From Gammaproteobacteria bacterium (GTDB lineage: Bacteria; Pseudomonadota; Gammaproteobacteria; GCA-001735895), in contig JAOTYD010000032.1 of the NCBI GenBank assembly GCA_029862005.1, positions 1 through 35,628 of the forward strand: 35,628 nt of DNA, written 5' to 3'. Position numbers and translations under genes: made by a program. The notes under the pieces are model-generated. The model made no database searches, was not told the DNA's origin, and saw nothing but the letters and a program-made list of their open reading frames with translations. This document shows, one piece after another, positions 4,801 to 18,703 of this stretch (positions within the stretch are counted from its first letter, which is position 1; each line of letters starts with the position of its first letter).

Positions 4801-5655
4801 CTAATCAACCAGGTCGTCGGCGCGCACCCGGCCGTCGGCGTGCACATCGGTGACCTTGCCGTACAGGTTCTTCACCCGCGCCATGCTGCCGACCATGCCG
4901 GGCTTTTCACTGAACGACATGATCAGTAACAGCCGGTCGGTATTGCCGCTGTTAGCGGTAACCTGGTGCAATGAAAAACGCCCCAGGAAAAACTGCAGGT
5001 CGCCAGCATTCAGTTCGAGGCGTTTAACGCGGCTGCGATCACCCTCGAGCACCTGTTTAACTTCGTCATAGCATTCGTCCTGAGCTGTGCGCAGGCCCGG
5101 CACATACTCGAAATGCCCGCCGCTGTCGGCCGCCTGCAACAACATCGTGATGGTGAATTCGTTGGTGTCGAAATGCCAGTTGAATTGTTGCCCGGGTTTA
5201 CCGACATTAACAATCATGTTTGATACCGGGTCTTCGTAAATAAATAACTCGTCCTTGCCCAGGCACTCGGAGAGGAACTGTTTTAACGGTTCCCAGTAGT
5301 AAAGCCGGTGCGATGTTGTTTCTTCCCCGAACAAATCGGCGGTAATAAAACCGTTGCTGCGCGGAATAAAAATATTAAGCGGGTGGTCTTGCGGGAAATC
5401 CGGATCGCCGTCGTTGAGATAAACATTGCACTGTTTACGCTCCGAGTAATAGGCCTGCGATTTTCGCTCACTGGCCTCGGTCAACAGGGCCCGAAGACCG
5501 GGTGCACTGAAGAAATTGCGGATTACCGCACAACCGTCATGCTCGAGCTCGGCCCTGACCTGTTCGATCACTTCGCGGCGTCGCCAATGATCCAGCTCAT
5601 CGATCGGGTAGCGTGCGTGATCAATGATTTCGGTGCAGGCGAGTTTCTGTGACAT
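4801..5655 (-). CDS. Fe(II)/2-oxoglutarate-type oxygenase
   Basis: The protein is about 284 residues. A cupin-like iron site is visible: H-x-D in FNWHFDTNEF and a distal His in FSLHQVTANSG, followed by an Arg about ten residues later (NTDRLLLIMSF) placed where 2-oxoglutarate is usually bound. Sequence around the motif (YEDPVSNMIVNVGKPGQ before, GGHFEYVPGLR after) supports a hydroxylase of a small molecule. The GTG at 5670 is in frame, but the ATG at 5655 has GGAG nine bases upstream and is preferred. It is the last gene of the leftward amidase operon, 24 bp after the zinc-finger gene. The substrate is unknown. Confidence 0.82.
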   Translation of the reverse strand: MSQKLACTEIIDHARYPIDELDHWRRREVIEQVRAELEHDGCAVIRNFFSAPGLRALLTEASERKSQAYYSERKQCNVYLNDGDPDFPQDHPLNIFIPRSNGFITADLFGEETTSHRLYYWEPLKQFLSECLGKDELFIYEDPVSNMIVNVGKPGQQFNWHFDTNEFTITMLLQAADSGGHFEYVPGLRTAQDECYDEVKQVLEGDRSRVKRLELNAGDLQFFLGRFSLHQVTANSGNTDRLLLIMSFSEKPGMVGSMARVKNLYGKVTDVHADGRVRADDLVD

Positions 5656-5679
5656 TGCTGATTTCTCCACAGCTTTAGT

Positions 5680-5946
5680 CTAGCGTAATTGACTGTCCTT
5701 GCTGGCCCGGCGATTGACGCCGCCCTGGCTTGCCTGCTGCTGATCGAGTTCCTGTTGGCAGTTGACGCATAGACGCACCCCCACGATGGCCTTGCGGCGC
5801 GCCTCGGGAATGTCGACACCGCATTCCTCGCAATGGGTGAGGCTTTCGCCTTTGGGTAAACGGCTGCGCGCCAGTTCGACCGCGTCCTCGACACTGGCAT
5901 CGATCTGATCCTGCACCGCGCCATCGCGCGCCCAACCTGTTGCCAT
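5680..5946 (-). CDS. DksA/TraR-type C4 zinc-finger protein
   Basis: This 88-residue protein has C39-x2-C42 and C60-x2-C63 in the frame HCEECGVDIPEARR...LCVNCQQ, the DksA/TraR zinc finger. It is far shorter than DksA (about 150 residues) and lacks the long coiled coil, so it resembles the YbiI/TraR-like short forms. Such proteins may act at the RNA polymerase secondary channel, but the role of this subgroup is not established. The start is supported by GGAG six bases before the ATG. Its place inside a metabolic operon, between amidase and oxygenase, suggests a local regulator, which is inference. Confidence 0.87.
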   Translation of the reverse strand: MATGWARDGAVQDQIDASVEDAVELARSRLPKGESLTHCEECGVDIPEARRKAIVGVRLCVNCQQELDQQQASQGGVNRRASKDSQLR

Positions 5947-6001
5947 GGATTACTCCAGCTTCAATAACAGGTAGATATTCTGCGCCTGAAAACTGCCATG
6001 T

Positions 6002-7396
6002 TCAATCTGGATCTGCAATTTCAAGTGGTGCATTACGGGCCTCGATATCGGTCGCAGCAGCGAACAGGGTGTCTTCCCGGAACCGCGACGCGACTAGTTG
6101 AACGCCCATCGGAACCGAAGTGTTGCCGTCGGTTGCGACTGAAATCCCGGGTATACCCATCAGGGGTACTGCAATTTGTGTCATCTGTGCCTCGAGCACG
6201 CGCCGGAACGACTCGGGTGATTCAACATCGAGCATGTCGGGGAAGGGCGGTTCGGCAGAAACCGGGCACAGCAGGATCGGGTATTGCGCCAGGAACAGCT
6301 GCCATTCGCGCGCCAGCGTTATGCGTTGCTGCAGTGCTTCCATCAGGCTCTCGAGTGTCGGTATCGGGCAGTTTTCACACAATTGCGCATACACGAAATT
6401 GGCGTCGGGATCATCTTCCTGCCTGACTGCTGCACCGCCACTGAATTGATACTCCGACATCCACAGCAGCAATTGCAATTCCATGGCCTGGCGCATCGGA
6501 GGACTATCGACTTCGGCCACCTGCCATCCGGCGTCCTCGAGCTGTCTGGCTGCCTCGTGCAACGCCCGTTCGACCTGAGGCATAACTTCGAGGCCATCGG
6601 GTGATATGCATAGTGCCACGCGTTTCGGCGCCGGCGCCTGTTCGAGCGGGGCCGGAACCCACCAGGGATCGAGCTCACTGCCGGCGGCCATGGCGGCAAG
6701 TCCAAGCCTGAGATCCGCAATGCTGCGTGCGATGGGGCCCGAAACCGCGGTTAACTGGGCGCCGATGTGGCGATCCGGGAGCGAAAGGTTGACAGCCGGG
6801 ACTCGACCCAGGCTCGGTCGAATGCCGTGCAGCCCGCAGGCATAGGCCGGATAGCGGATCGAACCCGCAATATCGGTACCGTGTCCGAGCGCACAGATGC
6901 CGGCCGCCACGGCAGCGGCAGATCCGCCCGAAGAACCACCCGGGGTCAGTTTCGCGTTGCGTGGATTGAGCGTATGCCCGTGCAGGGAATTGCGTGTAAA
7001 CCAGCGCATCGAAAACGCCGGCGTATTAGTGCGGCCGACAATAATCGCGCCGGCCTTGCGCAGGTTCGTCACCACCGGGCTGTCCTGCCCGGCGAAATTA
7101 TCTTGCTGAATTCGAATGCCATTGGTGTTGGCAAATCCCTGCTGGTCGATATTGACTTTGATGGTAACCGGCACCCCGGCAAGTATTCCGGTTGAATGGC
7201 CATCGGCGATAGCATCGTCGACCGCACGTGCTGCGGCCAGCGCAGCCTCTGGCATTGGCTGCACCACGGCATTAATCGCAGGATTGACGTCCTGCAATCG
7301 CTGCAGGCTTTGTTCGGTAACCTCGGTCGCAGAAATTTCGCGGTTGGCAACGCGAGTTGCAATATCGGCTGCGCCCAGGCGCCACAGTTCAGTCAT
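6002..7396 (-). CDS. Amidase signature family hydrolase
   Basis: The protein is 464 residues, normal for the family. The Ser-cisSer-Lys triad is visible: Lys in VPVTIKVNID, cis-Ser in the Gly/Ser-rich GGSSGGSAAAVAAG, and the nucleophile Ser in TDIAGSIRYPAYACG (family consensus DTGGS; here I-A-G-S). The reaction is hydrolysis of a carboxamide; the substrate is not predictable from these motifs. A GGAGG ribosome site lies seven bases before the ATG. A small open frame ends 13 bp upstream and the zinc-finger gene begins about 55 bp downstream, so it is an internal gene of the leftward operon. No signal peptide, so cytoplasmic. Confidence 0.93.
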   Translation of the reverse strand: MTELWRLGAADIATRVANREISATEVTEQSLQRLQDVNPAINAVVQPMPEAALAAARAVDDAIADGHSTGILAGVPVTIKVNIDQQGFANTNGIRIQQDNFAGQDSPVVTNLRKAGAIIVGRTNTPAFSMRWFTRNSLHGHTLNPRNAKLTPGGSSGGSAAAVAAGICALGHGTDIAGSIRYPAYACGLHGIRPSLGRVPAVNLSLPDRHIGAQLTAVSGPIARSIADLRLGLAAMAAGSELDPWWVPAPLEQAPAPKRVALCISPDGLEVMPQVERALHEAARQLEDAGWQVAEVDSPPMRQAMELQLLLWMSEYQFSGGAAVRQEDDPDANFVYAQLCENCPIPTLESLMEALQQRITLAREWQLFLAQYPILLCPVSAEPPFPDMLDVESPESFRRVLEAQMTQIAVPLMGIPGISVATDGNTSVPMGVQLVASRFREDTLFAAATDIEARNAPLEIADPD

Positions 7397-7409
7397 CGCT
7401 GATCCTCCG

Positions 7410-7538
7410 CTACAGGTCGAAATAGTATAAAGCAGTGAATATTGTAAGTGCCCATATTATGCGAGCCCAGGTCATGCGTCGAAACCCGCGCAACCGATAC
7501 CGCAGCCGCTCAATGATTCGCTCGAATATCTGGATCAC
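7410..7538 (-). CDS. Candidate small membrane protein between RidA and amidase
   Basis: The 198 bases between RidA and amidase hold one frame open throughout, from inside the RidA end to a TAG at 7410-7412, only 13 bp before the amidase ATG. The best start is GTG at 7538 (42 residues); an ATG at 7475 gives 21 residues. The peptide has a very basic amphipathic start with repeated Arg (IERLRYRLRGFRR) and a hydrophobic C-terminal helix (IIWALTIFTALYYF), a usual layout for small inner-membrane proteins. No convincing ribosome site precedes either start, so it could be chance. No family is recognised. Confidence 0.35.
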   Translation of the reverse strand: MIQIFERIIERLRYRLRGFRRMTWARIIWALTIFTALYYFDL

Positions 7539-7594
7539 GACCGCGAGACTGGAAATCTGGCGTCTGAGCTGGTGATGGTCGGTGGGGTGACGAA

Positions 7595-7975
7595 CTAGCG
7601 CCTGACCTGGCAGGTAATTTCAACCCTGCTGCCACCAAACAGGTGTTTCGACTCGGTCGTGGTGCGCGCGGGGTAGGCATCGCCATCGAAGAATTCGCGG
7701 TAGGCGGCATCCATTGCATCGAAATCATCCAGATTGGCGAGGTGCACCTCTACCTTGACAATGCGTTCTTTTGTAAGACTTAACTCATCGAGTATGCTGC
7801 CGATCGCAGCCCATATGGCACGGGTTTCGGCCGCCGCGTCACCCAGTACCTCAATTCCGGCCGGGAAATCGGCTGCAACCAGTCCCGAGAGGAAGGCGTA
7901 CTGGTCATCCAGAACCACCTGGCTGAAAGGTGCACTTGATTCCGGAACGGCTTTTGGCTGGACGCGGTTTAAAAT
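7595..7975 (-). CDS. RidA-family enamine/imine deaminase, start codon atypical
   Basis: The Rid family pattern is clear: AFLSGLVAAD, the IWAAIGSILDELSLT helix, VEVHLANLDDF, and YPARTTTESKHL with the Arg that RidA uses to bind its substrate. RidA proteins hydrolyse reactive enamine/imine intermediates made by amino-acid-processing enzymes. The first normal start (GTG at 7918) leaves about 107 residues and cuts off the conserved first strand. In-frame codons upstream read PKAVPESSAPFSQV, matching the family N-terminus, but no ATG, GTG, TTG or CTG lies in the open frame up to a stop at 8018-8020. ATT at 7975 is the best-placed candidate and is used here; a lost start codon is the alternative. 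Confidence 0.8.
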   Translation of the reverse strand: MLNRVQPKAVPESSAPFSQVVLDDQYAFLSGLVAADFPAGIEVLGDAAAETRAIWAAIGSILDELSLTKERIVKVEVHLANLDDFDAMDAAYREFFDGDAYPARTTTESKHLFGGSRVEITCQVRR

Positions 7976-7991
7976 AACAGGTGCCGTATTT

Positions 7992-8102
7992 TCAGCCGAC
8001 CATATTGGCGCCGATGATTAACAGGACACCCAGAACCACGAAAGCGATGAAAGTGTAAACCAGGTGTTTCGTCGTGGTTTTATCGTCTTGATTTGGATTC
8101 AT
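7992..8102 (-). CDS. 36-residue single-pass membrane protein
   Basis: This gene is short enough to be missed by most gene callers. The ATG at 8102 is preceded by a strong purine-rich ribosome site (GGAGGGGGAACTAGTAG then ATG). The peptide has a polar head MNPNQDDKTTTKH, then about 20 hydrophobic residues (VYTFIAFVVLGVLLIIGA) and ends NMVG. The topology is a single transmembrane helix with a short cytoplasmic or periplasmic head. It is the first gene of the leftward RidA-amidase operon, 17 bp before the proposed RidA start, so it may be co-translated with RidA. I know of no matching family. Confidence 0.65.
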   Translation of the reverse strand: MNPNQDDKTTTKHLVYTFIAFVVLGVLLIIGANMVG

Positions 8103-8174
8103 CTACTAGTTCCCCCTCCAGGATTGAATCAAGTACTATATAGTGCCGAACCTGGAGCCAAATTGCCACCGCGT
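8103..8174. promoter_or_regulatory. Divergent control region with symmetric -10-like palindrome
   Basis: Only 72 bp separate the 36-residue gene (left) from the enoyl-CoA hydratase gene (right). At 8135-8144 lies the perfect palindrome ACTATATAGT, offering a TATATA or TATAGT -10-like hexamer on both strands. It is enclosed by a perfect 7-bp inverted repeat, CTCCAGG at 8116-8122 and CCTGGAG at 8151-8157. No good -35 box is seen for either direction, so activator dependence is possible. The left arm overlaps the ribosome site of the small membrane gene. Confidence 0.45.
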
Positions 8175-8972
8175 ATGAGCGATCAAATCTATGAAACGTT
8201 GGTGCTGGAATACCCGGCCACCCACGTCCTGCAAATCACGCTGAACCGACCCGAAGTCGCCAATGCGTTTAATACGCAGATGGCAACCGACCTGATGCAT
8301 TGCTTTGAAACACTGGCACTGGAGCCCGGCGACAATCGCTGTGTTATTTTAACCGGAACCGGCGACAAAGCATTTTGTGCGGGTGGCGATCTGAAACAAC
8401 GCGACGGTATGACGAATGAAGCCTGGACCGAGCAACATCTCATTTACGAGCGCATGATTCGCGCCATCATCGATTGTCCACTGCCGTTGATTGCCGCGGT
8501 GAATGGCGCCGCTTTTGGGGGTGGTTGTGAGCTCGCGGCAGCGGTCGATTTTGTCTATGCGTCAGAAAATGCGCGCTTCGCGATGACCGAGACCAGTCTT
8601 GGAATAATCCCCGGGGCCGGCGGCACCCAGACCCTGGCGCGAGCACTGGGTGAGCGCCGCGCCAAGGAATTGATATTATCGGCACGACGTTTCAATGCAG
8701 AAGAGGCCCAGCGTTGGGGACTCGTGAATGAAGTGTTTACCGCCGGCATTTTGCTAGATGAAACCATACAGGCTGCTTCGCGCATTGCAGCCAATGCACC
8801 GATTGCGGTGCGTCAGGCAAAACAGGCGATTCATGGCGGCTTGCAGATGTCGCTGGCCGAAGGGCTTGTATTTGAGATTGAAGCCTATAACCGCACGGTA
8901 CCAACCGACGATCGGCGCGAAGGAGTTAAAGCTTTCAATGAAAAACGCCCGCCGCAATTCAAGGGGAAATAA
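8175..8972 (+). CDS. Enoyl-CoA hydratase/isomerase (crotonase) family protein
   Basis: The protein is 265 residues from the ATG at 8175. A GTG at 8064 is in frame but would add 37 residues running through the control region. The crotonase fold is supported by the oxyanion-hole motifs AFCAGGDLK and AFGGGCELAAAVD. Both catalytic-type glutamates are present, in GGGCEL and in MTETSLGIIPGAGGTQ. The second motif resembles AUH/methylglutaconyl-CoA hydratases more than the FadB type. It is first in a rightward operon with a BKACE 5 bp downstream, so it probably processes an acyl-CoA in the same pathway. The exact substrate is unknown. Confidence 0.92.
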   Translation: MSDQIYETLVLEYPATHVLQITLNRPEVANAFNTQMATDLMHCFETLALEPGDNRCVILTGTGDKAFCAGGDLKQRDGMTNEAWTEQHLIYERMIRAIIDCPLPLIAAVNGAAFGGGCELAAAVDFVYASENARFAMTETSLGIIPGAGGTQTLARALGERRAKELILSARRFNAEEAQRWGLVNEVFTAGILLDETIQAASRIAANAPIAVRQAKQAIHGGLQMSLAEGLVFEIEAYNRTVPTDDRREGVKAFNEKRPPQFKGK

Positions 8973-8977
8973 GATCC

Positions 8978-9853
8978 ATGTCTAACGAAGTGATACTGAC
9001 CTGTGCCGTTAGCGGCGGGCACAATAACCAGGGCAAGCACCCCGATTATCCGATTACACCTGAACATATCGCGAGCGACTGCATCGCGGTTGCGAAAGCA
9101 GGTGCGGCGATCGTCCACATCCACGTGCGCGATCCGGAAACCGGAATGCGCTCTGGGGATCTGGCACTGTTTCGCGAGGTCGTCGAACGTATCCGTGATT
9201 CTGGCAGCGATGTTTTGATCAATCTCACCACCAGCGAAGGGGCGCGCTTCGCGCCTGGCGACGAGGACGCCGCCGTCGGTGGTCCCGGAACAACCCTGGT
9301 ACAACCGCTTGATCGCCTGCATCATGTCGAGGAGTTGCGTCCCGATATCTGTACGCTCGACGTGGGCACTTTCAATTTCGGTGAAACCATCTTCGTTAAT
9401 ACTCCGTCGCATTTACGCATCATGGCGCAGCGTATTCGTGAACTTGGCGTAAAGCCCGAGCTCGAAGTGTTTGAACCCGGGCATATCATGTTTGCGCATA
9501 AACTGATCGAAGAAGGCCTGATCGATGGTGCGCCGATGTTCCAGCTTTGTCTTGGCATTCCACATGCTTCGCCGGCAACGCCCGAGATACTCAGTGTCAT
9601 GAAAGGGTTGTTGCCAGAAGACGCGAACTGGAGCGCTTTCGGTATTTCGCGAATGGAATTTTCAATCGTGGCCCAGGCCGCGAGCCAGGGCGGTAACTGC
9701 CGCGTCGGGCTCGAGGATAACCTCTATCTCGACAAGGGTGAGTTTGCGAGTAACCTGCAGCTGGTAGAGCGCGCGGTGCGCATCATCCGTGAGCTCGGTC
9801 GCGAACTGGCGACGCCTCAGCAAGCGGCTGAGCGTCTGGGGATAGAACGCTAG
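8978..9853 (+). CDS. Beta-keto acid cleavage enzyme (BKACE, DUF849 family)
   Basis: The protein is 291 residues, typical for the family. BKACEs are zinc enzymes that cleave a beta-keto acid with acetyl-CoA, giving acetoacetate and a new acyl-CoA; known members act on 3-keto-5-aminohexanoate, dehydrocarnitine and similar compounds. Visible motifs: TCAVSGG near the N-terminus, HIHVRDPETG (two zinc His), NLTTSEG, and RVGLEDNLYLDKG with the zinc Glu. The residue before that motif reads GGNCRVG where I expect GGHVRVG in many members, possibly a specificity change. It follows the crotonase gene by 5 bp and precedes the phosphatase by 2 bp. Confidence 0.92.
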   Translation: MSNEVILTCAVSGGHNNQGKHPDYPITPEHIASDCIAVAKAGAAIVHIHVRDPETGMRSGDLALFREVVERIRDSGSDVLINLTTSEGARFAPGDEDAAVGGPGTTLVQPLDRLHHVEELRPDICTLDVGTFNFGETIFVNTPSHLRIMAQRIRELGVKPELEVFEPGHIMFAHKLIEEGLIDGAPMFQLCLGIPHASPATPEILSVMKGLLPEDANWSAFGISRMEFSIVAQAASQGGNCRVGLEDNLYLDKGEFASNLQLVERAVRIIRELGRELATPQQAAERLGIER

Positions 9854-9855
9854 TC

Positions 9856-10602
9856 GTGGCAAGGCTGTACCTGATCCGGCACGCGCAGTCGGCCAATAAC
9901 GAGATCTGGGACGGCAGTGACCACATGGCGGGTCGTCACCCTGATCCCGAGATTACCGAGATAGGCCATCGCCAGGCTGAAACGCTGGGGCAGCACCTGG
10001 CGCATCCCGAGGCGGAGCCCCGTCAGCACCCGTTCATCCCGGCCGACGGATTCCATTTTGGTTTAACCCATGTTTACTGCAGCCTGATGACGCGCTCGAT
10101 TCTTACCGCGGAGTACATAGCCGGAGCCTGTGACCTTGAGTTGCAGGCTCTTCCCGATATTTTTGAAAAGCACGGCATTTATGATGTTGATGACGATGGT
10201 AACCTGCAGGGTTTGCCCGGGCCTGGTCGGGATTATTTCGCACAGCGTTTTCCGAGCCTGAAGTTGCCGAAAGAATTTAATGACGAGGGTTGGTGGAGTC
10301 GACCGGTCGAAGACGAGCTGGCTTTTATCACGCGTATGCAAAAGGTGGTAAACGATATCAGGCAGCGACTTGATCAGAGTGACGAATCCATTGCACTGGT
10401 GGCGCATGGCGATTTCATCGATCAATTCGTCAATGAACTCATGGGCGTGGTAAGACACCATCCCAACTATGATAATCACTGGGTTGCCAACTGGACTTTT
10501 CACAACACGTCGATATCGCGTATTGACTTTGTCAACGGCGCGCATAACGTCGTCTACATGAATAGAATCGATCATCTGCCGAACGAACTGGTGACCTGGT
10601 AA
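9856..10602 (+). CDS. Histidine phosphatase superfamily protein
   Basis: The protein is 248 residues. It begins with the phosphohistidine motif LYLIRHAQSANNE directly after a GTG start, two bases past the BKACE stop, so tight coupling is likely. The second catalytic His is in IALVAHGDFIDQF. An insertion between them (about residues 60-130) includes GIYDVDDDGNLQGLPGPGR. The family includes phosphoglycerate mutases and many small-molecule phosphatases; the substrate here is unknown. Its TAATG overlap with the next gene supports one transcript. Its presence hints at a phosphorylated intermediate in the pathway, which is inference. Confidence 0.9.
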   Translation: MARLYLIRHAQSANNEIWDGSDHMAGRHPDPEITEIGHRQAETLGQHLAHPEAEPRQHPFIPADGFHFGLTHVYCSLMTRSILTAEYIAGACDLELQALPDIFEKHGIYDVDDDGNLQGLPGPGRDYFAQRFPSLKLPKEFNDEGWWSRPVEDELAFITRMQKVVNDIRQRLDQSDESIALVAHGDFIDQFVNELMGVVRHHPNYDNHWVANWTFHNTSISRIDFVNGAHNVVYMNRIDHLPNELVTW

Positions 10603-11459
10603 TGGCATACTCGCTTACGGCTGATCAAGTCGATCAATACCAGCGGGATGGCTTCCTGTTTCCGCTGGATGTCTTCGTAAAAGACCGGGTCGACCATATC
10701 CTTGGTGAGCTTGAGCACGCACGAACGGTGGCACGTGAGAAAGGACTTGAACCCGAACTCGCACAGTTACTGCGCGCGAATACCCATTACCTGCTTCCAT
10801 TTGTAAACGAAGTCGCCCGGGCACCACAGCTACTCGACCGGGTCGAATCAATCCTGGGTCCGAATATCCTGCTGTGGAGCGCGGAGTTTTTTATCAAGGC
10901 CGCGCATACCGACAAGATTGTCAGCTGGCACCAGGACCTGACTTACTGGGGACTTGGTGAAACCAACGAAGAGATGACTGCATGGTTGGCCCTGTCTGAC
11001 GTCAATGTCGAGTCAGGATGCATGCGTTTTGTTCCGGGTTCGCACCATCAGCAAATCGTTCCGCATCGGGATACCTTCGATGCCACTAACCTGTTGTCGC
11101 GAGGACAGGAAGTTGCGGTCGATGTTGCAGAAGAAGATGCGGTAGACGTTATTCTGGACCCGGGACAGGTTTCGTTTCACCACGGACGGATGTTTCACGC
11201 ATCGGGACCTAATCGCAGTGCCCGGGATCGCATCGGCCTGGCATTTCGCTTTATAACCCCGGAAGTGAAACAGTTAGTCGCTAAACGCGATTACGCGATG
11301 CTGGTTCGAGGTATTGACGAAGGTAAAAACTGGATTCATGTCTCACCACCCGGGCGCCTTTTCGACCCGGCCGATCTCGAACTCCACGCCCGGATCAGAC
11401 AGGACCAGTCCACCGCACTCGCCGAGGGCGCGGAACAGGAACTATACACGGCCTACTAG
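10602..11459 (+). CDS. Phytanoyl-CoA dioxygenase (PhyH) family oxygenase
   Basis: The protein is 285 residues. The iron ligands are the H-x-D in SWHQDLTYWG and the distal His in GRMFHASGPNRS, with the following Arg (RDRIGLAFRF) where 2-oxoglutarate binds. The MRFVPGSHHQQIVPH segment is also typical of PhyH proteins, which hydroxylate fatty acyl-CoAs, ectoine and other small molecules. It overlaps the phosphatase stop (TAATG) and closes the rightward operon. It is the second 2-oxoglutarate-type oxygenase in this divergent cluster, but the two proteins share only the iron motif by eye. Confidence 0.92.
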   Translation: MAYSLTADQVDQYQRDGFLFPLDVFVKDRVDHILGELEHARTVAREKGLEPELAQLLRANTHYLLPFVNEVARAPQLLDRVESILGPNILLWSAEFFIKAAHTDKIVSWHQDLTYWGLGETNEEMTAWLALSDVNVESGCMRFVPGSHHQQIVPHRDTFDATNLLSRGQEVAVDVAEEDAVDVILDPGQVSFHHGRMFHASGPNRSARDRIGLAFRFITPEVKQLVAKRDYAMLVRGIDEGKNWIHVSPPGRLFDPADLELHARIRQDQSTALAEGAEQELYTAY

Positions 11460-12547: not shown

Positions 12548-14608
12548 TTACGCCAATCCCAGGGCCTGTTTTCTTTGATTGGCCCAGGTGCGCAGCACCT
12601 GGTCGATGGCGAGCCCGATAAAGGCAACACATAGGCCCAGTACCAACCCGTTGCCGACACCGTCTTTATCAGACAAGGATTTGAGAATCAATTGCCCGAG
12701 ATCGTCGGTCCCGATCAATGCGCCGATGATGACCATTGACAGCGCGAACACCACGGTTTGATTGATACCGAGCGCAATATGCGGAAAGGCCATCGGCAGC
12801 TCGATAGACAGGTATCGCTGCAGTCGGCTCACACCAGACATCGAGCCGGCTTCTTGGAGCTGCAGCGGCACGCTCAGCATACCCTGAATCGTGTAACGCG
12901 TAGCCGGGACGGTGGCGTAGACCACGATTGCGATCAGCACCGAGGTATCGGTCACACCGAACAACATCATCACCGGGATCAGGTAAATGAACGACGGGAA
13001 CGTCTGGAAGGTATCGCATATCGTTAGCATAATTCGCGTGCTCACCGGATGTTGTGAGCATAGCGTACCCGCAACGATGCCGATGGCGGTCGAGATCAGC
13101 ACCGACAGCGTCATCAGGTAAGCGGTGATCAGCGCCCGATCCCACCATTCGGTCAGTGCGATGAACAGCAGAAATCCACCAACAGCCAGGCCCACTCGAA
13201 CCCCGCCGACGATGTATCCGATTCCCATTGCCAGCGCGAAAGTCGCAGCAACCGGCATGGCGAGGTAAGCGGTCTTGACCGGTACCAGTACCTGGACGAT
13301 CAGCCATTCGTTAAAACCTTTGAGCGCGTAAAAGAAAGTATCCCAGATCCAGTCGACCCCGGCCTGCCAGAAATCCTGGGTCGTAATGCCCTTGTTGTGC
13401 GGAATCAGGTAGAGATAGTTAAACCCCTCCTTGAATACCAACGAGCCGATTAATGCCAGGATGACACCAACAACGAATACGACACCGAACATCAACGAAA
13501 ACTTGTGCCGTTCGAAGAACGACAGGTCGGCGAAGTAATCGATTTGCTTATCGGCCCAGGCGAGCGACAGCCGATCGAGCATGATTGCAATCAAGACGAT
13601 ACAGATGCCAAGTTCAAGTGCGAGACCGATCCTCAGCTGGTTCAATGCGATTAGTAAATTGTTACCAAGCCCCTTGGCGCCGATCAGGGATGCGATAACC
13701 ACCATCGCCAGACAGGACATGATGGCCTGGTTGACCCCGATCAGGATATCCCGCCGGGCAGTAGGAATCAGCACCTTGAACAACAGTTGCCGGTTGTTGC
13801 AACCACTCATCAATCCAGCCTCGGCGACCTCGGGCGATAGTTTTTTCAGGCCCAGTATGGTCAGCCGCACCATCGGTGGGGTGGCGAATATAACTGTCGC
13901 GATCGCGCCGGCATGATCGCCGATACCGAAAAACACCACGACCGGGACCAGGTAGGAAAAGTGCGGCATGATTTGCATCACGTTGAGTATCGGGTTCAGC
14001 ACCATCTCCACGGTTTTACTCCTGAATGCCCAGATACCGAGCACGAGGCCGAGCAAGACCGAAATCGGCGCGGCGATCAGGACGAAGGACAGGGTTTCCA
14101 TCGACGGTTCCCATTGTCCGAATACCGCGATGTATACGAATGTAAATCCGACAAACAGCGCCAGCCGTGGCCCTTGCAGCGCATAACCCAGAATCGCGGC
14201 GCCACCGGCAACCACGGTCCACGGCAATCCCGGCCAGCGCGCCCACTGGTTTTCAGTCGCCCAATCCCAACCGCTGAAGGTGACGATTGTCTTAACCCCA
14301 CCGAGAAAGATTTCGCGAATAAATTCGATCAGAAACAGGATCAAGCCCGAAGCCGAACGGGTGAACTGGTTCATCAGCGGTTTTTCTTCATAATCCTCGA
14401 TATCCGGGTCCCAGACGTCGATCAACCACCAGTCGAACATGATGTAGTCGACCGAACTGGTAATAATCTGCGGCAGCTTCTGGATCAACGGTGGTAAACG
14501 CCAGAACCAGTTACCTTCGGACGGCGTGATGATGACGCACAGCAGCACAAAAAAAACTAGCAGTAAAACAAACTGCAGGTGCTTCTTTTGCCGGAGCGCT
14601 TCGATCAT
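12548..14608 (-). CDS. Fused double permease of a quaternary-amine ABC importer
   Basis: The 686-residue protein carries two BPD_transp_1 permease domains in one chain. The first EAA loop is EAGLMSGCNNRQLLFKVLIP (about residue 280) and the second EAGSMSGVSRLQRYLSIELP (about residue 600). Most ProW/OpuAB permeases are about 280-350 residues and act as homodimers, so this fusion replaces the dimer with one polypeptide. Similar long permeases occur in marine TMAO/betaine importers (TmoW-like). It has many hydrophobic segments from residue 12 onward. The ATPase stop overlaps its ATG by 4 bp (ATGA). It partners the ATPase and binding protein encoded upstream. Confidence 0.92.
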   Translation of the reverse strand: MIEALRQKKHLQFVLLLVFFVLLCVIITPSEGNWFWRLPPLIQKLPQIITSSVDYIMFDWWLIDVWDPDIEDYEEKPLMNQFTRSASGLILFLIEFIREIFLGGVKTIVTFSGWDWATENQWARWPGLPWTVVAGGAAILGYALQGPRLALFVGFTFVYIAVFGQWEPSMETLSFVLIAAPISVLLGLVLGIWAFRSKTVEMVLNPILNVMQIMPHFSYLVPVVVFFGIGDHAGAIATVIFATPPMVRLTILGLKKLSPEVAEAGLMSGCNNRQLLFKVLIPTARRDILIGVNQAIMSCLAMVVIASLIGAKGLGNNLLIALNQLRIGLALELGICIVLIAIMLDRLSLAWADKQIDYFADLSFFERHKFSLMFGVVFVVGVILALIGSLVFKEGFNYLYLIPHNKGITTQDFWQAGVDWIWDTFFYALKGFNEWLIVQVLVPVKTAYLAMPVAATFALAMGIGYIVGGVRVGLAVGGFLLFIALTEWWDRALITAYLMTLSVLISTAIGIVAGTLCSQHPVSTRIMLTICDTFQTFPSFIYLIPVMMLFGVTDTSVLIAIVVYATVPATRYTIQGMLSVPLQLQEAGSMSGVSRLQRYLSIELPMAFPHIALGINQTVVFALSMVIIGALIGTDDLGQLILKSLSDKDGVGNGLVLGLCVAFIGLAIDQVLRTWANQRKQALGLA

Positions 14609-15681
14609 GGTGCTTTTTCAGCCGCGTCGTCAGAGTGGCCGCCAAACAGGACGTGGATAATATGGGAAGCATGCAAAGCACCAACGATCTCACCTGCCGA
14701 GTCGACGACCGGTACCGGTTTGTCGGTATTCAGAATGTCCTCGGCAACGGTCTCAATGATGGCATCTTGTGAAACCCTCAAATCGCTGACCTCCTCGCTG
14801 GGATCGAAGGGATCCATGACTGACTTGATTTTGAGCACCTTTTCACGCGGTACTTCCTCGGTGAACTTGCGCACGTACTCGGTGGCCGGGTTGAGCACGA
14901 TATTCGCCGGCGTATCGAGTTGCTCGATGATGCCATCCTTCATGATGGCAATGCGATCAGCCAGGCGCAGCGCTTCGTCGAAGTCATGGGTGACGAATAA
15001 AATGGTTTTGCCGAGCACATCCTGCAGGCGCAGAAATTCGTCCTGCATCTCCTTGCGGATCAGCGGATCGAGCGCGGAAAAGGGTTCGTCGAGAAACCAG
15101 ATATCGGGTTCGATCGCAAGCGAGCGGGCGATGCCGACACGTTGCTGCTGGCCGCCCGAAAGCTGCCGCGGAAAGTAGTTTTCGCGCCCGGTGAGACTGA
15201 CGAGATCGACCATTTCCTTGGCCCGCTGCATGCTGTCCTTGGTGCTGACTCCCTTGACCTGCAACGGAAAGGCGATATTTTCGAGTACGGTTTTGTGCGG
15301 CAGCAGGGCGAAACTCTGAAACACCATGCCCATCTTGTTGCGGCGCAGCTCGATCAATTGCTTGTCATTCATCGCCAGGATATCTTCGCCCTCGATGTAA
15401 ATTTTCCCGGCAGTGGCCTCGTTCAGCCTGGAAATGCAGCGCATCAGCGTCGACTTGCCGGAGCCCGACAAGCCCATAATGATCAGCAATTCACCCTCAT
15501 ACACCTCGAACGAGGCATTGTTGACCCCGACGATGCACCCGGCTTCCTGGAACTTGGCGGCGTCGACGACGCCTTTGGCCTGTTCCAGCATGCTGTGCGC
15601 ATTGTCGCCAAATATCATGTAGACCGAATCGCAACGGATGACCGGTTCGTCTGAAGACGAAGTTTCAGCTTGAGTAGACAT
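14605..15681 (-). CDS. ABC importer ATPase, ProV/OpuAA type
   Basis: The protein is 358 residues from the ATG at 15681. The frame is open to 16056, but that extension is antisense to the binding-protein gene and has no domain. It shows a Walker A (GLSGSGKST), Q-loop, signature (LSGGQQQR), Walker B (DIWFLDEPFSALD) and H-loop (FVTHDFDEAL). A C-terminal extension of about 90 residues ends EIVGALHASHIIHVLF, resembling part of a CBS module. CBS domains in OpuA-type ATPases sense ionic strength, so osmotic gating is possible. It sits between the binding protein and the fused permease. Confidence 0.94.
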   Translation of the reverse strand: MSTQAETSSSDEPVIRCDSVYMIFGDNAHSMLEQAKGVVDAAKFQEAGCIVGVNNASFEVYEGELLIIMGLSGSGKSTLMRCISRLNEATAGKIYIEGEDILAMNDKQLIELRRNKMGMVFQSFALLPHKTVLENIAFPLQVKGVSTKDSMQRAKEMVDLVSLTGRENYFPRQLSGGQQQRVGIARSLAIEPDIWFLDEPFSALDPLIRKEMQDEFLRLQDVLGKTILFVTHDFDEALRLADRIAIMKDGIIEQLDTPANIVLNPATEYVRKFTEEVPREKVLKIKSVMDPFDPSEEVSDLRVSQDAIIETVAEDILNTDKPVPVVDSAGEIVGALHASHIIHVLFGGHSDDAAEKAP

Positions 15682-15755
15682 GGTTATATTTTTGATTCTC
15701 CCCCGGATCGTAAAACTACCACATTTGCGCGGGCAGGAAATACTACCGTTTAGAA

Positions 15756-15799
15756 AAAGAATCCCCCGAGCCAGATGTTCTGCGCTGGGGGGGTTCTTT
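15756..15799 (-). terminator. Hairpin with U-run between binding protein and ATPase genes
   Basis: The arms at 15756-15767 and 15788-15799 pair over 12 positions (one G-T) with a G-rich core. On the minus strand the stem runs into TTCTTTTTCT. It lies 32 bp past the binding-protein stop. Hairpins at this place in importer operons usually let most transcripts end after the abundant binding protein, or protect its mRNA, while some read-through supplies the ATPase and permease. Confidence 0.7.
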
Positions 15800-15830
15800 A
15801 TTACTTCACGTTTTGGATCCAGCCAACGGC

Positions 15831-16781
15831 TTACATGCCGGTTTTGGTCCAGCCTTCCCAGACGTCTTTGTTGTCGGCCAGCCACTTCTTCGCGGCATCT
15901 TTGTGGTCCATCTTGTCGACGTCGACCAGTGCAGCCATTTGACCGATTTGCGGAGTCGTGAACGACAGCTGCGAAAAGATCGTGTAAGCATGCGGATGAG
16001 TTTTCGGCATCTTGTAGTTCGCCGCTTTCTTCAACCAGCCCTTGGGTGATCCGCACTTACCATCACCACCGTCGGCCTTGCGGCAACCAGGAGTATACGG
16101 CGGGAACTCGATGAAAGTGAAACCTTCCGCATCTGTGAAGTTCGGCGTCCAGTTGAAGATGACCGTGCCACGGCCTTCTTTCTTGGCGGACGCGAGTTCG
16201 GTCCACAGCGCGTCGGCGCCGCCGGCGAACTTGACCGTCCACTTGTCGTCGAGACCTAGCGCTTTGATGCGCTCCGGCATCAGGTCGCCGTGCCAGCTTT
16301 GCGGGCCTTCCAGCCAGCGGCCCTTGCCACCTGAATCAGCCGTGGTAAAGTTATCGCTACATTTAGCGAGCGCTTCCCAATTGGGCAAGCCGGGGCACAG
16401 GCCCTTTTCGATAACCCAGGTCGGAACGCCCATTTCCTCGAGCGTGGTCGCTTGGTGGGTACCGGCGTCGATCACACCGCCCTTGGCCATCGCGTTGTAG
16501 AAGGACTTGCCGAAAGTGGACTGCCAGACTTCGTGCGAAATGGTGACATCGCCGTTGCGGATCGACTCGTATACGGCCTGCGAATCAGCGGGCACGTACT
16601 CGACGTTATCGCCAATGCTTTCGAAAATGCCGCCGATGACGTAGGCCATGACGATCTGGCTCGACCAGTTATGGATCGGGATGACGATCGGCTTGGTACT
16701 ATCCTTGGCCTGGACGACGTTGGATAATCCAATCGAGGCACCAAGCAGCAGCAACACGGCTAATTTGGTAAGAAATTTCAT
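15831..16781 (-). CDS. Periplasmic binding protein for a quaternary amine (betaine/TMAO-type)
   Basis: The 316-residue protein has a clear Sec signal peptide (KFLTKLAVLLLLGASIG..., probable cut after VVQA). It matches the OpuAC/ProX family: IPIHNWSSQIVMAY, EYVPADSQAVYESIRNGDV, SHEVWQSTF, and IFNWTPNF. Repeated Trp residues at these points could form the aromatic cage that holds a trimethylammonium head group. It is closest in layout to TMAO/betaine binding proteins of marine bacteria, but the ligand cannot be decided by eye. A good GGAG ribosome site precedes the ATG. It is the first and probably most highly expressed gene of the importer operon. Confidence 0.92.
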   Translation of the reverse strand: MKFLTKLAVLLLLGASIGLSNVVQAKDSTKPIVIPIHNWSSQIVMAYVIGGIFESIGDNVEYVPADSQAVYESIRNGDVTISHEVWQSTFGKSFYNAMAKGGVIDAGTHQATTLEEMGVPTWVIEKGLCPGLPNWEALAKCSDNFTTADSGGKGRWLEGPQSWHGDLMPERIKALGLDDKWTVKFAGGADALWTELASAKKEGRGTVIFNWTPNFTDAEGFTFIEFPPYTPGCRKADGGDGKCGSPKGWLKKAANYKMPKTHPHAYTIFSQLSFTTPQIGQMAALVDVDKMDHKDAAKKWLADNKDVWEGWTKTGM

Positions 16782-17055: not shown

Positions 17056-18240
17056 TTAAACATTTCTTTCGGGTACTTCGATGCGTTTTCCGCGCGGTAT
17101 TTCGGCCTCCTTGTCGTACAGCGGTAAACTGGCAAGACGGCCCGAATGCATCTCGCCGTCGATGCACCTGATCGTTACCGGGTCACCGTCACGGAAGCCT
17201 GATTGATCCATCAACGCGATGCCGATGCCTTGTTCCAGGTAGGGTGAAATCGCGCCGGCAGTAATCTTGCCGACGGGCTCGCTGTGGATACTGACCTCAC
17301 CGCCAATATGCGGTTCCGCTTCGCATTTCAGGCCGGTCAGTCGATTGTCCCTGGGCGCGGCAAGCAGTGCCTGCTTGCCGATAAAGTCACCCTTGTTCGC
17401 ATCAACGAAGCGTCCGAGGCCGACATCGTAGGGCGTGGTCGTATGGTCGAAATCGGAGCCGGCATTGAGGATGCCGGCTTCGATCCTGCGAATGTGCATC
17501 GAATCCAGCCCGAACAATTCCATACCGAAAGGCTCCCCGGCGGCCTTGAGGTGGCTCCACAGGGCATCTGCGTCGTGATGTGGCTCGGTGTAATACTCCC
17601 AGCCCAGTTCGTTGGTGTAGCCAGTGCGCGTAATAACAACCTGCTGCCCGCCGAGACTGACGCGGGCTAGCCCGAAGTAGCCAAAAGGTTCGGGCATGCC
17701 ATCGTCACTAGCGGCCTCGAGGATTTTAAGCGAGTTCGGGCCCTGCACCTGGGAGACGAATACCCGCGGATCACTGATCTCGACATCCATGCCCGCGGCA
17801 TGCGCGCGTGCCCAGCTGTAAAAATCACCATCGGCCTGCGCGTACCAGAACAGGCCGGATTCGAGCCGCAGCAGGATTCCGTCAATCAGCAGACCGCCAT
17901 CCTCGTAACAGGCGAGTCCGTAAGCGCAGCGCCCCGGTTTTACCCTGGTGATGTCCTTGGTGAAAAGTTTGTCCAGCAGGCGCTCGGCTTCGGGTCCCCT
18001 GAATTGCAGTGGAAATTCACCGGTATGCAGTACCGCGGCCTGTTGGCGCAACCGCCAGTATCCGTCGACAATATCGAGCTTGTCGAAACAGCAGGCCATC
18101 TGGCGCCGGTTGTAAACGCAGTAATGGGGTCCAAACGGGCGCTCGATCATGTGATAAGGATGCCGCGACAGGGAAAAGTCCCAGCCCGCACCGGGTAAGG
18201 TGGAAACGAGATCTCTGGTTTTGCCGTCACTGGAACTCAT
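17056..18240 (-). CDS. GcvT/DmdA-like folate-dependent aminomethyl- or methyltransferase
   Basis: The protein is 394 residues. It follows the glycine-cleavage T-protein fold: YNRRQMACCFDKLD start, EDGGLLIDGILLRL with the conserved Asp, VSQVQGPNSLKIL, RTGYTNELGWEYY, and a C-terminal barrel (GRFVDANKGDFIGKQALL). The segment FWYAQADGDFYSW...DVEISDPRVFVSQVQGP resembles DmdA (dimethylsulfoniopropionate demethylase) and sarcosine/dimethylglycine-type homologues more than true GcvT. No gcvH or gcvP is nearby, so a glycine-cleavage role is unlikely. It lies upstream of the importer on the same strand, suggesting that it transfers a methyl group from the imported compound to tetrahydrofolate. The exact substrate is not determined. 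Confidence 0.86.
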   Translation of the reverse strand: MSSSDGKTRDLVSTLPGAGWDFSLSRHPYHMIERPFGPHYCVYNRRQMACCFDKLDIVDGYWRLRQQAAVLHTGEFPLQFRGPEAERLLDKLFTKDITRVKPGRCAYGLACYEDGGLLIDGILLRLESGLFWYAQADGDFYSWARAHAAGMDVEISDPRVFVSQVQGPNSLKILEAASDDGMPEPFGYFGLARVSLGGQQVVITRTGYTNELGWEYYTEPHHDADALWSHLKAAGEPFGMELFGLDSMHIRRIEAGILNAGSDFDHTTTPYDVGLGRFVDANKGDFIGKQALLAAPRDNRLTGLKCEAEPHIGGEVSIHSEPVGKITAGAISPYLEQGIGIALMDQSGFRDGDPVTIRCIDGEMHSGRLASLPLYDKEAEIPRGKRIEVPERNV

Positions 18241-18310: not shown

Positions 18311-18703
18311 TTACTGGTAATCCTGGTAAGATTTTTCTTCGACAATGGTCGAGTTCAGGTGCAGGTTGACCCGTTTCTTGGCATCGGCGCGTTTGTCGTT
18401 GGTGACATAAACCGCTCGCGCCAGCTCAATGAAGCGCTCGCCGAAACGTCGGTTGCGTTCCTCGGCACGGATATCGTCCTCGATTTCCCAGAGCGTCTCG
18501 TTAATCGACTTGAGTTCGGCGCTGAGCGCCGTGATGACATCATCGGACTCGACCGACTCGTCCCATACCTTGCTCAGCAGTTCGAGTTCAGTTTTGACGT
18601 TCGCAACCTTGGCAGGGTCGGTGATGCGTTCCACCTTGATCTGCAGGATCGTGATCTTGTCCAGTAACTCGCCGGGAGAGATCGGAATCAGGATTTCGTT
18701 CAT
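18311..18703 (-). CDS. DUF6165 family protein
   Basis: The 130-residue protein begins NEILIPISPGELLDKITILQIKVERI, which is the DUF6165 pattern, and continues with helices rich in Glu/Lys (AEERNRRFGERFIELARAVYV). The family often sits near glycosyltransferase or envelope genes and has no known activity. It follows the MMPL exporter by about 50 bp on the same strand, so it is probably the last gene of the glnS-acyltransferase-exporter operon. No clear ribosome site is seen at the ATG. Confidence 0.85.
   Translation of the reverse strand: MNEILIPISPGELLDKITILQIKVERITDPAKVANVKTELELLSKVWDESVESDDVITALSAELKSINETLWEIEDDIRAEERNRRFGERFIELARAVYVTNDKRADAKKRVNLHLNSTIVEEKSYQDYQ

Follow-up and report, generated by a model that had tools for sequence, protein, structure and literature searches.

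The DNA analyzed here is positions 1-35,628 of contig JAOTYD010000032.1 (the window, 35,628 nucleotides at full length), which carries at positions 4801-11459 a divergent gene cluster built around a beta-keto acid cleavage enzyme (BKACE). The cluster looks like two loosely linked units: a core of microprotein and RidA genes leftward and crotonase, BKACE, phosphatase and, in part of the loci, PhyH genes rightward, and a second unit of amidase, zinc-finger and HalD-like genes. We propose that this is a two-unit accessory catabolic cluster whose core BKACE would cleave an anionic beta-keto acid, and we give this explanation as a whole a probability of about 0.5. It was found in 19 genomes including the window's own, all of one genus of marine gammaproteobacteria. 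The features of the cluster are as follows.

4801-5670, minus strand: HalD-like Fe/2-oxoglutarate oxygenase (Pfam HalD 47.8 bits, cut-off 26), with HFD replacing the HxG of halogenases
5680-5946, minus strand: DksA/TraR-type C4 zinc-finger protein (Pfam zf-dskA_traR 44.6; PRK11019 family 147.7 bits, cut-off 96)
6002-7396, minus strand: amidase-signature enzyme (Pfam Amidase 299.5; PRK07487 subfamily 676 bits, cut-off 428)
7595-7993, minus strand: RidA-family gene (Pfam Ribonuc_L-PSP 68 bits; the annotated open reading frame (ORF) runs from GTG 7918 and encodes 107 amino acids)
7992-8102, minus strand: ORF of a 36-amino-acid single-pass membrane microprotein, recognized by conservation and codon-position differences
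8131-8149, plus strand: 19-bp element AAGTACTATATAGTGCCGA, a putative promoter or operator upstream of the crotonase gene, recognized by sequence conservation
8175-8972, plus strand: crotonase/enoyl-CoA hydratase family, first gene of the rightward operon (Pfam ECH_1 248.3)
8978-9853, plus strand: BKACE (DUF849) of the Arg90/His196 type (Pfam BKACE 310.3 bits, cut-off 24.8; Zn ligands H47, H49, E246)
9856-10602, plus strand: histidine phosphatase superfamily, branch 1 (Pfam His_Phos_1 72.1)
10602-11459, plus strand: PhyH-family Fe/2-oxoglutarate oxygenase (Pfam PhyH 117.3; full H-x-D...H...R set)

All eight genes named in the initial annotation lie at the coordinates and on the strands it gave, with families confirmed by Pfam and catalytic residues intact; the 36-amino-acid ORF had been overlooked. 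Residue conservation was counted in full-length orthologues from the fetched loci of the genus, excluding the window, and for the enzymes other than BKACE the catalytic positions are those expected for the families. The Zn ligands H47/H49/E246 of the BKACE are kept in 18 of 18 orthologues. Likewise conserved are E119/E139 of the crotonase (17/17), which we take to be the two catalytic glutamates of enoyl-CoA hydratases, R8/H9/R80/H184 of the phosphatase (16/16), R110 of RidA (15/15), H166/D168/H235/R246 of the HalD-like protein (13/13) and H110/D112/H199/R210 of the PhyH protein (7/7). In the amidase, S155, S156 and S179 occur in all 14 orthologues and K80 in 13 of them.

Gene order and spacing, counted with the window included, distinguish the two units. 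In the rightward arm, crotonase and BKACE genes are separated by 3-7 bp in all 19 loci, BKACE and phosphatase genes by -1 to 2 bp in 16 of 17 (12 bp in the other), and phosphatase and PhyH genes by -1 bp in nine of ten (-30 bp in the other). The stretch after the phosphatase is visible in 16 loci, and 10 of these have PhyH there. The distance from RidA to crotonase is 177-184 bp in 15 of 16 loci and 268 bp in one. The core unit probably forms an operon under a control region of its own. In the second unit, the zinc-finger and amidase genes are spaced by 52-57 bp in all 16 loci, and the HalD-like gene lies 5-30 bp from the zinc-finger gene in 11 of 15 loci and 185-783 bp away in three; in the fifteenth (G011) it is reduced to a remnant with a stop and the core is retained. 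Between amidase and RidA, the 15 loci compared show gaps of 14-2433 bp. A Rieske oxygenase gene occupies this gap on the other strand in six of 15 genomes and was not detected in that of the window; among curated families it scores best with the oxygenase subunit of glycine betaine monooxygenase, at 147 bits, far short of the cut-off (670). The HalD-like gene also occurs without an adjoining amidase (G008) and with its end at a contig edge in a genome that has no BKACE of this type (G024). Wherever amidase and RidA genes share a contig they are neighbors (15 loci), and position is all that ties the second unit to the core. Outside the genus, no gene for an amidase, zinc-finger protein or BKACE lies beside the nearest HalD-like relatives, as far as their contigs extend. 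Two HalD-like oxygenases of about 40% identity (L174, L176) stand between a LysR-like regulator gene before and an M24-peptidase-like gene after, both named by eye.

An arrangement found in one genus could also mean that there is no pathway, and that independent genes are kept together by general synteny. Parts of the cluster do occur apart in other members of the genus, and the downstream MMPL and glutaminyl-tRNA synthetase (GlnRS) genes are syntenic in several loci as well. We nevertheless consider this explanation unlikely: the rightward genes are spaced within translational range, and the control region is conserved in length and sequence while the flanks and the amidase-RidA gap vary.

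The region between RidA and crotonase has two conserved components. The first is the microprotein ORF, whose product begins hydrophilic and contains a single hydrophobic stretch. Counting the window, 17 genomes conserve this ORF, among them one where RidA was not found (G001), and its divergence from the window at the three codon positions (0.187/0.093/0.42) is as expected of a coding gene. It has no Pfam match, and outside the cluster a single weak match was obtained in the fetched loci (E 0.068, L077). The second is the 19-bp element, where 5% of sites differ from the window against 23% for positions 8103-8174 overall. It recurs with at most three mismatches in all but one (L123) of the 17 cluster genomes and is absent from every other fetched locus. 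In L115 a one-base gap interrupts the reading frame that would extend the crotonase through the element (alignment by eye), which led us to reject a coding upstream extension of the crotonase and to read the element as a signal; from its conservation, it is putatively a promoter or operator. A wider regulon was likewise rejected, as the window genome holds one exact site and its matches at three mismatches are near control level (two, against one for the reversed pattern). For a shorter 16-base pattern the window gives one match, with 0.34 expected.

A further observation concerns the start of RidA. In the window and seven of 14 other readable loci, there is no ATG, GTG or TTG between the upstream stop and a conserved I-L-T-R-I-Q-P-like N-terminus; the other seven have such a codon at varying positions. 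ATT or ATC often stands at the conserved N-terminal isoleucine, which is likely the first residue (window 7595-8030, minus strand). No report of a RidA with an AUU start codon was found in the literature searched.

The substrate proposed for the core follows from the BKACE pocket. The alignment register was set by the Zn ligands, with H47, H49 and E246 of the window protein corresponding to H48, H50 and E247 of BsfD; in this register, R90 aligns with BsfD Arg91 and F165 with BsfD Phe166. Position 90 is Arg in 19 of 19 cluster proteins, 22 of 22 stand-alone close relatives and four of 40 distant relatives, of which 31 have Asp. Position 196 is His in 19/19 cluster and 20/22 stand-alone proteins and Trp in 38/40 distant ones, and position 106 is Thr in 19/19 and 21/22 and Asp in 35/40, respectively. 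In addition, the GDT motif of carnitine-side BKACEs is replaced by HNN. Since R90 and H196 stand where most carnitine-side proteins have Asp and Trp, an acid-tailed beta-keto acid would be a likelier substrate than an amine. According to PMC4922564, the groups into which Bastard et al. (2014) divided the BKACEs include separate ones for negatively and positively charged substrates, and from the aligned residues we infer that the window BKACE belongs with the former. The initial annotation had proposed a nitrogen-containing carbon source; as far as a cationic substrate at the BKACE step is concerned, the pocket residues argue against it.

Two features near the cluster, neither of them constant, bear on this question.

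12548-16781, minus strand: betaine/choline-type ATP-binding cassette (ABC) transporter (fused permease, ATPase, OpuAC binding protein; family matches), an inconstant neighbor outside the core
17056-18240, minus strand: GcvT-family protein (family matches), an inconstant neighbor

The transporter lies beside the cluster in seven of 19 loci, and five other contigs continue without it. A DUF6165 protein gene adjoins the GcvT-family gene (window 18311-18703, minus strand).

These neighbors might suggest catabolism of carnitine or another quaternary amine, in which the BKACE would cleave dehydrocarnitine, and the nearest characterized contexts of more distant BKACEs are indeed carnitine-like operons. 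A gene cluster of 3-hydroxyacyl-CoA-dehydrogenase-like type (c3) is present in 20 of the 40 distant loci and one of thioesterase-like type (c5) in 15, both named by eye; together these are the make-up of carnitine operons. Neither occurs in any of 40 loci of the R90 type (18 cluster, 22 stand-alone). D90, D106, W196 and GDT are replaced here by R90, T106, H196 and HNN, and no carnitine dehydrogenase is found at the window cluster. Moreover, the window genome has two carnitine/crotonobetaine-like clusters elsewhere, each with its own BKACE (L085, G000 C8; L086, G000 C12, by eye); the C8 gene beside the BKACE has carnitine 3-dehydrogenase as its best family, at 480 bits against a cut-off of 592. 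We rejected the carnitine reading on the pocket residues and the absent dehydrogenase, and regard it as highly improbable. No paper linking DUF849 with carnitine was found in the literature searched.

The resemblance to BsfD raises a different option, namely a biosynthetic cluster whose DUF849 enzyme would transfer acetyl in the manner of BsfD, an enzyme of flavophos synthesis. Among the PDB matches of the window BKACE, BsfD ranks second, R90 and F165 match its Arg91 and Phe166, and the cluster holds two Fe/2-oxoglutarate oxygenases, enzymes that are common in biosynthesis. The authors of the BsfD study place Arg91 near the phosphonate and call it unique among characterized BKACEs (PMC12871164). 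They also describe a Tyr near the substrate in all BKACEs, as against Phe166 in BsfD (PMC12871164). Phe occupies this position in all 81 BKACE sequences compared, the carnitine side included; the missing Tyr is therefore not decisive, and F165 was rejected as a sign of BsfD-like chemistry. Phosphonate biosynthesis was also rejected, as no phosphoenolpyruvate (PEP) mutase above the family cut-off is present in the window genome (best 121 bits, cut-off 319.55; control genomes also match below the cut-off). No export or resistance gene was recognized beside the core. We therefore judge a biosynthetic role very unlikely.

For the catabolic cluster that we prefer, we infer the direction and the order of steps as follows. 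The leftward microprotein and RidA genes and the rightward crotonase-BKACE-phosphatase(-PhyH) genes would share the conserved control region. The crotonase would hydrate an enoyl-CoA within the same route. Arg90 of the BKACE would bind the far-end acid group of the beta-keto acid, and the enzyme, with acetyl-CoA and Zn, would release acetoacetate and a shortened acyl-CoA. RidA may clear a reactive enamine or imine, and the phosphatase and PhyH protein are presumably peripheral. The amidase, zinc-finger protein and HalD-like oxygenase, at times with a Rieske oxygenase, would form the second unit. Such a role of the crotonase fits the neighbors of its orthologues: in G023 (71% identity), CitE-like and HMG-CoA-lyase genes lie on the same strand and CoA-transferase and acyl-CoA-dehydrogenase genes on the opposite one, and in G022 it follows an acyl-CoA dehydrogenase. 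By analogy, the enzyme may be an enoyl-CoA hydratase in the breakdown of a branched or dicarboxylic acid. The phosphatase is less informative, with no PDB sequence match at E 0.001 and an AlphaFold model of only moderate confidence (mean pLDDT 63.9); a fold search with this model retrieved generic histidine phosphatases, including phosphoserine-phosphatase-like and Sts phosphatase matches.

Distribution was assessed with a genome scan for the BKACE protein. It yielded 228 relatives, and the loci of the best 80 were compared; some are short contigs, and the cluster was scored in full or up to the contig end. On this basis it is present in 18 of the best 80 (L005-L020, L026, L033). Another 22 (L021-L025, L027-L032, L034-L043, L063) encode BKACEs 66-87% identical and show no cluster partner except PhyH in L021 and L023, where a PhyH-family gene 32-33% identical to that of the window directly follows the BKACE gene and is itself followed by a ProC-like gene. 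In L025 (9998-14853), a close BKACE gene comes directly after a different Rieske oxygenase gene and before metallo-beta-lactamase (MBL)-fold hydrolase, GcvT-family and thiamine-diphosphate-enzyme genes (by eye). The remaining 40 are 50-57% identical, with weak crotonase-family matches (30-38%) and one amidase match (30%) among them.

The order of the window genome was represented by 41 genomes of one family, 31 of them in the window's genus. A BKACE of the close type (at least 80% identity) is present in 26 of the 31, within the cluster in 19 and alone in seven (G007, G008, G009, G010, G015, G020, G022). The phosphatase occurs in 22 of the 41 genomes, all of the genus, and in a class-level set of 369 genomes 366 gave no match at E 1e-10, the three matches being genus members. 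It stands apart from the BKACE in five of the 22, four times beside GreA/GreB-like, tryptophan synthase or other unrelated genes (names by eye). The crotonase (at least 69% identity) lies outside the cluster in G022, G023 and G009, where the contig end cuts it, and amidase relatives of 60-64% identity stand alone in six genomes. In a BKACE tree of 56 sequences, the 19 cluster rows form one side of a branch with support 93/86; one change suffices in 90% of bootstrap trees, and none of 500 shuffles was as low. Since the cluster BKACEs share one branch, the cluster was probably assembled once, and vertical inheritance within the genus would have followed.

The initial annotation named a lack of co-occurrence outside this genome as something that would refute it. 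Within the genus the genes do co-occur, as the same divergent layout recurs in 18 other genomes (species); it was found in this genus only, and because these genomes are closely related, their co-occurrence can prove only so much. The single catabolic route for a nitrogen-containing carbon source, drawing on both sides, that was proposed earlier can be weighed against this pattern. The two sides are adjacent in 15 of 15 loci with amidase and RidA on one contig, all enzymes retain their catalytic residues, and the GbcA-like Rieske oxygenase of six genomes and the betaine-type transporter hint at an amine. However, 62 of the 80 BKACE loci lack the set and the two sides act as separate units, with a variable gap between them and a HalD-like gene that is found without the cluster in G008 and G024 (contig-cut) and decays in G011 while the core stays. 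The BKACE pocket is unlike the cation-binding type. In addition, no core gene accounts for the initial CoA ester or for formation of the beta-keto acid: no CoA ligase or beta-hydroxy-acid dehydrogenase was seen among the ORFs of 4801-11459, although these may lie elsewhere in the genome. With these genes missing from the core and the transporter inconstant, the earlier description of a coherent route is unproven, and we think a single route improbable. The accompanying statement that no described pathway has this exact set stands in so far as no cluster so composed was found in the literature searched, which covers subscription papers poorly and is no proof of absence; the part that presumed one shared pathway acting on a nitrogen compound is not supported.

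Several observations also count against the two-unit catabolic cluster with an anionic substrate. The pocket argument is based on alignment, and BsfD itself does not cleave; its authors take Arg91 to act once the acetyl group has been transferred, perhaps when the product is released (PMC12871164). PhyH is missing in six of 16 loci. Close BKACE relatives in the 22 loci described above lack these partners, and in members of the genus that have no cluster, relatives of the phosphatase, amidase and crotonase are encoded separately. The importance of the partners to the BKACE may hence be little.

If the pocket reading is true, an Arg/Asp and His/Trp switch would separate acid-tailed from carnitine-type BKACEs. 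This would provide a simple annotation rule for a family mostly named '3-keto-5-aminohexanoate cleavage protein'. More speculatively, DUF849 proteins of the Arg90 type (R90 in 41 of 41 cluster proteins and close relatives, largely from marine or sediment gammaproteobacteria) might be a separate subfamily for carboxylate-, phosphonate- or sulfonate-tailed beta-keto acids, some with BsfD-like acetyl transfer, around one of which the genus built a cluster that has two sides, a microprotein of its own and a private promoter element; we hold this to be a long shot. The cluster finding does not establish a new pathway. It does provide a small testable gene set with a conserved control region and an unrecognized microprotein in sediment and symbiotic gammaproteobacteria, one carrier being an Olavius algarvensis symbiont.

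All enzyme families of the cluster are already known. The zinc-finger family PRK11019, for example, is common and widespread. The HalD-like protein exceeds the Pfam cut-off of the HalD/BesD halogenases (PF23169) and aligns in the HxD/G region; they have HWG where it has HFD, so it would be an oxygenase of the hydroxylase type. Likewise, the complete H-x-D...H...R set points to a hydroxylase rather than halogenase type for the PhyH protein, whose best PDB match is the PhyH monooxygenase 6zyk (165.7 bits). The BKACE belongs to DUF849/PF05853 by Pfam fold family, Zn ligands and the positions of the catalytic Glu, Arg and Asp, and differs from it in the R90/H196 pocket; it falls below all NCBIfam equivalog cut-offs (best 249 bits, against 382). 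The carnitine-type operons, with carnitine-dehydrogenase-like, thioesterase and betaine-type ABC transporter genes, encode BKACEs of the same family at 50-57% identity, whereas the window operon has neither the dehydrogenase nor an adjoining thioesterase and shows another pocket. The flavophos cluster is similar through the Arg91 and Phe166 positions of BsfD; unlike it, the window has no recognized phosphonate genes.

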